Source: Chloroflexota bacterium
Lineage (GTDB): Bacteria; Chloroflexota; Dormibacteria; Dormibacterales; Dormibacteraceae
Direction of reading: 5' to 3'
NCBI GenBank assembly: GCA_005881275.1
Contig: VBEF01000075.1
Span: 1-42,264 of the forward strand
Length of the DNA stretch: 42,264 nt
Shown here: positions 2,804-14,747 of the stretch, one piece after another
Numbering within the stretch: position 1 is the stretch's first letter
Layout: each line of letters opens with the position of its first letter
Translations under genes and position numbers: made by a program
The notes under the pieces: generated by a model
The model's database searches: none
What the model was told of the DNA's origin: nothing
The model's input: only the letters and a program-made list of their open reading frames with translations

Positions 2804-3448
2804 TCAGTCTTTGACCCTCGCGATCGACACCCCGTCACGGACCGGGATAACCACGCTTTCCAGGCGCGGATGCTTGGCCACGAGCTCGTTGAAGTGGGCA
2901 ACGTTACGCGCCTGCTGGTTCTTCGGCCGTACGACCTCACCCTGCCGGAGCGCGTTGTCCGCCATGAGCAGCGCGCCGGGCTGGAGCCGGTCCAGGCACA
3001 GCTCCAATGCCCGCCGAGTCATGTCCTCGGAGGGAAACACGTTCAGCAGGTCAATGAAACAAGCGTCGAATCGCTCGTCGAGCTTTTCCAATCCCCCGAC
3101 CGCGTCCTGCTCCAGGACGAGGGCCTGCTTCTCGAGGCCGGCGTCGGTGAAGTTCGCGCGGGCTCGCTCCGCGCGCTTGTGGTCGACCTCGAAGGTCGTC
3201 AGCGACCCACCTTCGCTGCCGCGCAGCAGCCAGATGCCGCTGTAGCCGATGGCCGTCCCCAGCTCCAGGATTCGCTTGGCGCCGGCGATCTTGACCAGGA
3301 GATAGAGCAGCATGCCCTCGTGCGCGTCGACGATTGGGATGTTCTCGCGATGCGCCTCCTCTTCCATGCGCGCCAGCACGCGATCGCGCTTCGGCAAGAG
3401 CCCATCCATGTATTCCTGCAGCTCGTCTGTCACTTCAACGGTTCTCAT
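2804..3448 (-). CDS. Class I SAM-dependent O-methyltransferase (Methyltransf_3 type)
   Basis: A 214-aa soluble methyltransferase of the catechol/caffeoyl-CoA O-methyltransferase-like family. The SAM-binding motif I is KRILELGTAIGYSG (58-71). The acidic end of strand 2 is TTFEVD (about 84-89), and a DACFIDLLN-type strand 4 (about 127-135) supplies the metal/catalytic aspartate region. The order of motifs and the length are normal. The real substrate cannot be told. The start ATG lies inside the 3' end of the upstream gene (14-base overlap), so the two minus-strand genes form an operon. Confidence 0.85.
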   Translation of the reverse strand: MRTVEVTDELQEYMDGLLPKRDRVLARMEEEAHRENIPIVDAHEGMLLYLLVKIAGAKRILELGTAIGYSGIWLLRGSEGGSLTTFEVDHKRAERARANFTDAGLEKQALVLEQDAVGGLEKLDERFDACFIDLLNVFPSEDMTRRALELCLDRLQPGALLMADNALRQGEVVRPKNQQARNVAHFNELVAKHPRLESVVIPVRDGVSIARVKD

Positions 3449-3881
3449 CGCGACTCCTCAAGAACTGCTCGAGCAGCGGCTGGAGCATGACGACGTACAA
3501 AGCCATGCACTCCACAGTGTGGCGGAGAACAGCGTCGTCAAGCCGCGCGGCGGGAAGCGTCTCGTAAAGCCTCGACCAACCCCGGTCCCATGGCTCGAGC
3601 TCGGCGTGCGGCAGGCTCGCCTTGACCTCCACCATGCGCGAACGGAAGTAGGCAAACGCGGCCTGGTTCTCGTCAGCAGAGGCTTCGAAGTGGAGCCCGA
3701 CCTCGATGCGACCCGCTCCAGTGTGGTGCCAGGCCTCGAAGTGGAACGCGGGCTCCCCGAAGTGAACCTTCATGAGCCGTCCGCGCCCGCGCGCGCTGCG
3801 GAACGTCCGCAGCCCGGGTGGCAGGCCGGCTTTCAGGCCTTTCCGCAGCCCGCCGAAGAAGTCAGATGGAGAGAGCAACAT
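3435..3881 (-). CDS. Conserved-looking hypothetical protein
   Basis: A 148-aa soluble protein that I do not recognise. It contains no signal peptide or membrane segment. Features are a basic N-terminus, a His/Glu/Trp-rich middle (FHFEAWHHTGAGRIEVGLHFEA, about 47-68) and a leucine-rich C-terminal helix ending in LLEQFLRSR. It overlaps the start of the downstream O-methyltransferase by 14 bases, so co-expression is likely. The histidines could serve a metal site, but this is only a guess from composition. Confidence 0.55.
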   Translation of the reverse strand: MLLSPSDFFGGLRKGLKAGLPPGLRTFRSARGRGRLMKVHFGEPAFHFEAWHHTGAGRIEVGLHFEASADENQAAFAYFRSRMVEVKASLPHAELEPWDRGWSRLYETLPAARLDDAVLRHTVECMALYVVMLQPLLEQFLRSRDENR

Positions 3882-3949
3882 TTATCGGTAGACGAGGTGG
3901 GGATGTAGGCCGGATCTATTCCGGCCGTCTCCCGAGCGTAACTTCCAGA

Positions 3950-4075
3950 CGCCTCCCAGACATGGCATGCCATGGAGGCGGCCCGCGGGGGAGGCCTGCC
4001 TCACCCGCGAATCCCCTCCCAGACATGGCGTGCCATGGAGGGGGCCCGCGGGGGAGGCCTGCCTCACCCGCGAAT
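3950..4075. repeat. Two tandem 63-bp units, each with two hairpins
   Basis: Copies at 3952-4012 and 4015-4075 match at 59 of 61 positions. Each unit holds hairpin A (3950-3980 and 4013-4043), with a 7-bp outer stem and an inner CATGGC/GCCATG stem. Each also holds hairpin B (3984-4009 and 4047-4072), CGCGGG-g-GAGGC-ct-GCCTC-a-CCCGCG. Position 3951/3979 is a G-C pair in copy 1 and a C-G pair (4014/4042) in copy 2, so pairing is kept. The only other change is in the loop (A3967 to G4030). The element ends 25 bases before the probable clpP start. Confidence 0.85.
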
Positions 4076-4100
4076 GCTTTCTCGTAAGCTGCCATCCAGA

Positions 4101-4721
4101 TTGGCTTACGTACCAACCGTCGTCGAGAACGAAGGCGGCAACCGCGAGCGGACTTTCGACATCTACTCTCGGCTGCTCAGAGACCGGATCATCCTGATCG
4201 GCCGCCCGATCGACGACGTCGTCGCCAACCTGGTTGTCGCTCAGCTCATGTACCTGGCGGCTGACGACCCGGAGAAGGAGATCCAGATCTACATCAACTC
4301 TCCCGGCGGCGCTGTCACCGCGGGCCTCGCCATCTACGACACGATGCAGTATGTCCGGGCGCCCATCTCGACCGTATGCATCGGCCGTGCCGCGAGCTTT
4401 GGCACCGTGGTGTTGATGGCGGGGGCGAAAGGCAAGCGGTTCTCCCTGCCTAGCGCCTCGATCCACATGCACCAACCCCTCATCGGGGGCAAGGGACTCC
4501 AGGGTCAAGCCAGCGACCTGGACATCCACGCCCGGGAGATCATCCGGATCCGGACGGTACTCAACGAGCTCATCGCCTTGCACACGGGCCAGCCCTTGGA
4601 GCGCGTCGAGCGCGATACCGACCGTGACTACTTCCTCTCGCCGGAGGAGGCAGTCGAGTACGGGCTGATCGACGGCATCATCGAGCAGACGCGTGTGCCG
4701 GTTCTGGCGACCCCCAAGTAA
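4101..4721 (+). CDS. clpP: ATP-dependent Clp protease proteolytic subunit
   Basis: Serine peptidase forming the double-heptamer chamber that degrades substrates delivered by Clp ATPases. From the TTG start it is 206 aa, normal for the family. Visible are the N-terminal axial loop/handle start ([16 protein letters not shown], about 16-31), INSPGG (about 66-71), the nucleophile Ser in GRAASFG, the catalytic His in HMHQP and the Asp in RDTDRD. The frame is open further upstream, with an ATG at 4074 at the edge of the tandem repeat. I prefer TTG 4101 because [10 protein letters not shown] fits ClpP N-termini and TAAGCT (4085-4090) lies ten bases upstream. No clpX or second clpP is adjacent. Its 3' end overlaps the convergent glycosyltransferase gene by 44 bases. 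Confidence 0.93.
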
Positions 4722-13628: not shown

Positions 13629-14747
13629 ATGAGCAAGATGAAGACCGGCACCGACCTCCAGGAGCAAGTTCAGCGGGCCATCGATGAGATGGTCGAGTCC
13701 GGGACGGAGCGAGGACTCCAGGTCGCGATCTATGAACGTGACGAGCAGATCGTCGACGCCGTGGCGGGCGTTGCGGATCCGGCAGCGGGCCGGCTGTTTA
13801 CACCGGACACTCCCGTCTACTGCTACTCGGTCTGCAAGGCGGCAGCCTCGACCCTGGTCCACATGCTGGCCCAGCGCGGGGCCTTCGACTACGAGACCAG
13901 GGTCGCCGAGCTCTGGCCGGAGTTTGGCGCTCATGGCAAGGAGGGTGTGACCGTCCGCCACGTCCTCAACCACACCGCGGGCGTGCCGGGCATCCCCCTG
14001 ACGACGACGATCGAAGATCTTTGCGACTGGGACAAGATGTGCTCGGCGATCGCCGCCGCCGAGCTCTGGTGGGAGCCGGGCACCAAGATCGGCTATCACG
14101 CCTACACGTTCGGTTACATCGTCGGCGAGATGATCCGCCGTGTTACAGGCCAGCCCATCTCGCAGGTTCTACACGACGAGCTTTCGGTCCCGCTTGGCGT
14201 CGAAAAGGAGCTCTACTTCGGCATGCCGCGGTCGGAGCACCACAGACTGGCTGTGCAAGAGGACGCGCCGATGCCGCCCGATTTCCAGATGCCGCCGGTG
14301 CCGCCAGACCTCCCGATGTTCAAGGCCGCGCCCATGTCGTTGATGCCTAACGCGGCGTTCGGCAATCGCCCGGACACTCTGGCCGCGGACATTCCGGCCG
14401 GCGGCAAAACAAGTGCCCGCGCGATCGCGCGGATGTACGCCGCGCTGCTGGGTGAGGTCGATGGGGTACGGCTTCTCACGCCAGAGCGCTTGCGAGAGGC
14501 AACGACCGCACCGGTCAGTGGAGTCGACGAGGTCTTCGGCATGCCGACGACCTGGGCTCTCGGATACTCGATTGGGGTGCCCGGCGGCTCGCCTCAAAGC
14601 CAGACGGCGTTCGGCGTCGGCGGAGTCGGAGGCAGCTTTGCCTACGGCGACCCCGCCACGGGGATCGCTTTTGCCATGACCAAGAATCGGTTGGCGAACG
14701 ATTTCAACGCCGTGACGAAGGTCATCGGCCTGGTCACCAAAAATTGA
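13629..14747 (+). CDS. Serine hydrolase, class C beta-lactamase/EstB-like
   Basis: A 372-aa penicillin-binding-protein-fold esterase/peptidase. The SxxK nucleophile motif is SVCK at 67-70, the VLNHTAGVPG segment at about 112-121 is family-typical, and Tyr156 in GYHAYTFGY takes the position of the YxN tyrosine. The C-terminal GVGGVGGSFAYGDP stands in for the HxG/KTG strand. No signal peptide is seen, so a cytosolic esterase of the EstB type is more likely than a beta-lactamase. It stands alone, 43 bases after the NmrA-like gene. Confidence 0.88.
   Translation: MSKMKTGTDLQEQVQRAIDEMVESGTERGLQVAIYERDEQIVDAVAGVADPAAGRLFTPDTPVYCYSVCKAAASTLVHMLAQRGAFDYETRVAELWPEFGAHGKEGVTVRHVLNHTAGVPGIPLTTTIEDLCDWDKMCSAIAAAELWWEPGTKIGYHAYTFGYIVGEMIRRVTGQPISQVLHDELSVPLGVEKELYFGMPRSEHHRLAVQEDAPMPPDFQMPPVPPDLPMFKAAPMSLMPNAAFGNRPDTLAADIPAGGKTSARAIARMYAALLGEVDGVRLLTPERLREATTAPVSGVDEVFGMPTTWALGYSIGVPGGSPQSQTAFGVGGVGGSFAYGDPATGIAFAMTKNRLANDFNAVTKVIGLVTKN

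Follow-up and report, generated by a model that had tools for sequence, protein, structure and literature searches.

The repeat beside clpP in the window (the whole stretch of DNA that was analyzed, 42,264 nucleotides from genome G000) is probably, with a likelihood of about 75%, a copy of a clade-specific, non-coding, and non-autonomous mobile repeat of the REP/BIME type. The element is about 120 nt in length, and its right half has been tandemly duplicated at this site. It is best read as a member of a new REP/BIME-like repeat family in one family of uncultured Ca. Dormibacterota.

A 61-nt core is present twice in the window, at 3952–4012 and 4015–4075, with 97% identity and a start-to-start spacing of 63 nt. 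The original prediction of a two-copy repeat upstream of clpP, in which each copy folds as hairpins A and B, was confirmed in the sequence, together with the three differences between the copies (A3967/G4030 in a loop, C3979/G4042, and G3951/C4014). The unit motif has 2 matches in the window versus 0.00 expected in shuffled sequence, and thus the tandem repeat is not due to chance. The full 63-nt units are assigned to 3952–4014 and 4015–4077 on the forward strand, which also carries the hairpins described below; this boundary is suggested by the identity of C4014 with C4077 and by the single-unit orthologues. Hairpin A spans 3950–3980 in the first copy (outer stem CGCCTCC/GGAGGCG of 7 pairs, inner palindrome CATGGCATGCCATG of 4 pairs) and 4013–4043 in the second. 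Hairpin B spans 3984–4009 (CGCGGG.GAGG-CCTG-CCTC.CCCGCG) and 4047–4072; its single mismatch (G·A) is as described previously, and the stem has 6 + 4 pairs rather than the 11 that had been counted. The folding of a single unit is modestly unusual (z of −2.2 and −1.9 for the two units), and the larger z of both units together is due to the copies pairing with each other. Other members of the genus have one A-B unit only in the clpP-side element, and thus the arrangement in the window is a partial tandem duplication, which includes hairpins A and B and not hairpin C (see below). Another short tandem repeat (27 bp, 2 copies, 80% matches) is found in the window at 14266–14318.

The right-hand neighbor, clpP, lies outside of the element at 4101–4721 on the forward strand (Pfam CLP_protease, 2.7e-75), with a start assigned by coding score and conservation. 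The likely start codon is the TTG at 4101–4103, which agrees with the 25 bases given earlier as the distance from the repeat to clpP; relatives do not share the upstream in-frame ATG at 4076. It is plausible that clpP is leaderless or has a very short leader. The adjacent stretch at 4078–4103, TTTCTCGTAAGCTGCCATCCAGATTG, is conserved at filled and empty sites and delimits the insertion on its right side. The divergent left-hand gene (3435–3881, reverse strand) is also outside of the element and is conserved, with no Pfam match.

The 63-bp unit forms the right-hand portion of a dispersed element of ∼120 nt with a left edge near 3890. A covariance model, R1, was built from 43 copies of the element. 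The full-length copy in the window (3890–4010, forward strand) is matched by R1 with 113 bits and an E value of 1.9e-26 in its own genome, and the boundaries of this copy recur in relatives. The order of the parts is a left arm (AGACGAGGTGG...), hairpin C followed by GTC, a variable middle that contains hairpin A in the window copy, GGAGGGGG, and hairpin B. Hairpin C (3908–3926, GGCCGGA-TCTAT-TCCGGCC) is conserved family-wide, and the CGTC at its end (3926–3929) is present in 93 of 106 copies. R1 detected the element in 35 of the 37 genomes that represent the host's family; among the other families of the class, 1 of 24 genomes gave a single weak match. The genomes compared are MAGs, and the named matching contigs belong to MAGs labelled Chloroflexi bacterium or Candidatus Dormibacterota; depth-labelled scaffold names suggest that these are from soil. 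There are about a dozen copies in G000 and up to ∼50 in other genomes (roughly 10–50 per genome), and head-to-tail tandem arrays are common at many loci. The family has no counterpart in Rfam at the gathering score, and the matches below that score (miRNA families) were attributed to chance. A pattern search of viral contigs gave no match, and carriage of the element by viruses was rejected for this reason. No literature on repeats of this kind in Dormibacterota was found.

Several variants were observed. Two tandem copies on contig C94 of G000 (L154, 3044–3360; also L105 and L106) contain a few tens of extra bases inside the tip of hairpin B, the outer stem of which is still paired. A lone hairpin C without hairpins A and B is found at L256 (G002:C94), which is orthologous to L262 14944–15060; at this site the element is present in G013 and missing from G003 and G010. 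A stem that resembles an ordinary terminator, GAGCCTCCT...AGGAGGCTCGT, adjoins several copies of the element (L037, L044, L068, L076, and L197).

The pair G3951–C3979 in the first copy and C4014–G4042 in the second had been taken as covariation. In alignment A4, which contains both window copies and five clpP-locus orthologues, this pair (columns 6 and 34) is G–C in copy 1, C–G in copy 2, and an unpaired G·G in all five orthologues. The duplicated unit is 63 nt, and C4014 equals C4077; C4014 is therefore the junction base and not a compensating change, and the only base change required is that at position 3979 in copy 1. As judged from these alignments, the claimed compensatory pair is an artefact of the duplication junction rather than two compensating substitutions. 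The inner part of hairpin A shows weak covariation, with three double-changed pairs in the small sample of clpP orthologues. Over 113 copies, the fold of the hairpin A region is no stronger than that of shuffled sequences (mean z of −0.26), and hairpin A is not conserved family-wide.

The proposal that the paired form is under selection is borne out for hairpins C and B across the family and not for hairpin A as a conserved part. In hairpins C and B, 98.6% of the cells are paired across 43 copies. Double-change cells number 22, compared to 6.7 in shuffles. Six pairs have double changes, versus 1.1 in shuffles and ≤2 in slid registers, and the true register outscores every slid register. The paired cells amount to 99.7% for hairpin C, with double changes at 2 of 7 pairs, and to 97.9% for hairpin B, with double changes at 4 of 10 pairs. 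The tips of hairpin B differ strongly in sequence yet stay complementary (AGGCCTGCCT, GATCCTGATC, and AGGACAGCGTCCT). Pairwise identities among the clpP orthologues are 95.5% for hairpin C, 92% for hairpin B, and 68% for the middle with hairpin A, compared to 75% for the left gene, 85% for clpP, and 65% for clpP third positions; hairpin A diverges here about as fast as the latter. Since hairpins C and B are conserved and covary and the middle is free, C and B are the conserved parts of the element and hairpin A is mostly local. The high identity of C and B could alternatively be caused by homogenization between copies.

Mobility of the element is well supported by the comparison of orthologous sites. 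The clpP site is filled in G000, G002, G003, G007, and G010, and partly filled in G001 (hairpin C and the left arm are lost). In G014 the copy is degenerate, G012 retains a remnant of it, and G016 may carry a scar. The site is cleanly empty, with clpP intact, in four congeners (G005, G008, G011, and G013). At the empty sites the start codon of the left gene abuts TTCTCGTAAGC, or TTTTCGTAAGC in G005. Empty orthologous sites also exist elsewhere, including the RKHGNIPL-stop locus of G004. Filled and empty genomes interleave in a tree of clpP and the left gene (G002 with G005, and G010 with G008), and recombination or deletion of the whole intergenic region could account for part of this patchwork. 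TTTCT flanks the element on both sides at the clpP site of G002, and most empty sites contain a single TTTCT. Flanking direct repeats are mildly above shuffles (mean 4.8 versus 4.0, a figure inflated by tandem copies), and the duplication length is not constant. At L034 (G004:C18) and L204 (G007:C56), the 3′ ends of genes are partly duplicated across the element over about 20 nt; these may be long target duplications.

The placement of 100 element blocks was examined: 36 are in convergent gaps, 51 in co-oriented gaps, and 8 in divergent gaps, with the rest undefined. Several of the 8 divergent-gap blocks are the clpP orthologues. The co-oriented blocks are divided 28 versus 23 by element orientation, which is no preference, and the ends of the element are typically 0–12 nt from stop codons. 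When gaps of ≥100 nt without the element at these loci serve as the reference, convergent gaps are favored over divergent gaps with an odds ratio of 24 (p = 9e-7) and divergent gaps are depleted of the element (p = 9e-4), against a baseline that is local and approximate because the loci were chosen as element-bearing and the genes were called by our own codon-score script. Selection against harm at promoters may contribute to this placement. In G026 (L189, 2900–6200), elements are located at the start of large ORFs, and the predicted N-termini run through the element. The neighboring ORFs at L189 appear to be tandemly duplicated; by eye, the genes between neighboring elements are surface/pilus-like large ORFs, and no transposase was recognized among them.

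The wobble pairs in the stems bear on which strand folds. On the strand that reads from hairpin C to hairpin B, G·T occurs 36 times and A·C 8 times, compared to 47 C>T and 55 G>A changes in unpaired conserved columns (Fisher p = 5e-5, a value that is too optimistic since the copies share ancestry, some of the events are related by descent, and a wobble-aware model was used to fit the alignment). At sites where the flanking genes transcribe the opposite strand only, the counts are 12 versus 0. The bias is thus also present where the genes read the other strand. This pattern argues for a constraint on one strand of the element and against one on the 3′ end of a host mRNA; the folded single strand would be DNA during mobilization or an RNA of the element itself.

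The main rival is that the element is a bidirectional terminator or 3′-end stabilizer, in which transcripts from either side would end at hairpins B and C or be protected by them and selection would retain the element at gene ends. This explanation is possible, if rather doubtful. It accommodates the marked bias toward 3′ ends and convergent pairs near stop codons and the stable, GC-rich hairpins, and published REPs share this placement and have been proposed to act as RNA (PMC3733652) or to aid Rho-dependent termination (PMC2817692). However, no U-run follows the stems in the window, and 0 intrinsic terminators were found at its positions 3800–4200, where a promoter scan also found none. In the same loci, convergent pairs that lack the element are for the most part directly adjacent or overlapping (median gap of −4) and so manage without it, orthologous gene ends are cleanly devoid of the element, and wobble is tolerated on one constant strand regardless of the strand transcribed. 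A terminator or 3′-end role may be a side effect. The original prediction had offered a regulatory RNA, an mRNA 5′ element, or a protein-binding repeat of the BIME kind, with a cis-regulatory RNA or promoter-proximal element of clpP as its main option. The BIME neighborhood was upheld, and clpP regulation is now very improbable, even with the position just before clpP kept in several congeners and the inner pairing of hairpin A retained through its double changes. Four congeners lack the element beside an intact clpP, G001 lacks hairpin C and the left arm here, the family is mostly at gene 3′ ends rather than upstream of genes, without orientation bias, and 5 of 5 orthologues have a mismatch at the outer hairpin A pair from which the idea arose. 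With a gap of 25 nt from the repeat to the TTG and a short or absent leader, the element may not be cotranscribed with clpP.

A classical DDE-type MITE, an internally deleted insertion sequence moved by a resident transposase, would explain the length of ∼120 bp, the empty sites, the TTTCT duplication in G002, and some of the longer flanking repeats. It is distinctly unlikely, given that AGACGAGGTGG at one end and (complement) GCRCGGGGGAGG at the other do not form an inverted repeat and the duplication length is not constant; inspection of the aligned ends by eye revealed no terminal inverted repeats. The Y1_Tnp domain (RAYT, IS200) gave 0 matches in G000 and in all of the element-bearing family members, which are incomplete MAGs, and control genomes were positive. 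The sole Y1-rich member of the family, G027, does not carry the element. RAYT/Y1_Tnp was rejected as the mobilizer on the basis of this absence, and Y2_Tnp because it is too rare and nearly absent. The clade-specific mobile repeat favored here probably spread as folded single-stranded DNA without a RAYT. Its unit is hairpin C with CGTC at its end and then hairpin B, in fixed order with a freely evolving middle between them. In this favored reading, the top strand would become single-stranded, and both hairpins would be recognized by a trans-acting enzyme other than Y1_Tnp. Copies that land after stop codons would survive because they do the least harm there. One copy would have landed between the two divergent genes at clpP, and its A-B half would then have been duplicated in G000. 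A more specific version, in which the folded top strand is moved by an enzyme outside of both the Y1 (RAYT/IS200) and the typical DDE transposases and is targeted to DNA just behind stop codons, is unlikely as a whole.

The element shares GC-rich extragenic palindromes, convergent or co-oriented gaps, and tandem amplification with REP/BIME sequences, including the GTAG- and CGTC-tagged REPs (Di Nocera 2013, PMC3733652). It is a dispersed extragenic palindromic repeat with 3′-end placement in convergent or co-oriented gaps at 87 of 100 sites, and REPs are mostly <20 bp from 3′ ends (PMC3733652). It differs from REPs in its length of ∼120 nt, in its two unlike hairpins in fixed order, and in its roughly 10–50 copies per genome; head-to-tail arrays, common here, are reported to be rare for REPs (PMC3733652). 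Full units of ∼120 nt are the rule, versus 20–40 bp for REP units, a size that hairpin C alone would fit. CGTC-tagged REPs share with the element a CGTC beside a short-loop palindrome and have an unpaired CGTC at one end, an 8–9 bp stem that starts with A-T pairs, and a CCA tail (PMC3733652). In the element, the CGTC is on the 3′ side and shares the last pair of the stem, which is GGCCGGA. GTAG directly 5′ of the palindrome, as in GTAG-tagged REPs, is present in 27 of 106 copies, and the element does not qualify as either tagged kind. REPINs and RAYT-mobilized REPs (PMC3116915, PMC2817692) share the two-hairpin unit, the signature of single-strand folding, and the presence/absence dynamics, whereas the hairpins of the element are unlike each other and do not form an inverted doublet, and its host genomes in the family are without Y1_Tnp. 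The bacterial MITEs ERIC, RUP, and NEMIS (PMC2229807) are likewise 70–300 bp, non-coding, intergenic, and strongly folding, with empty sites, but the element has no visible terminal inverted repeats or fixed target-site duplication.

As a general caution, what looks like covariation between tandem copies may instead reflect the junction of a duplication. The same-strand wobble signature provides a testable clue to the selection of structure in DNA. CGTC-tagged REPs have already been noted to be without a cognate transposase (PMC3733652), and the published view of REPs leans on such an enzyme, whereas the family described here would be a case without a detectable RAYT. As best read, it broadens the range of REP-like repeats to include a family-level clade of uncultured Dormibacterota.
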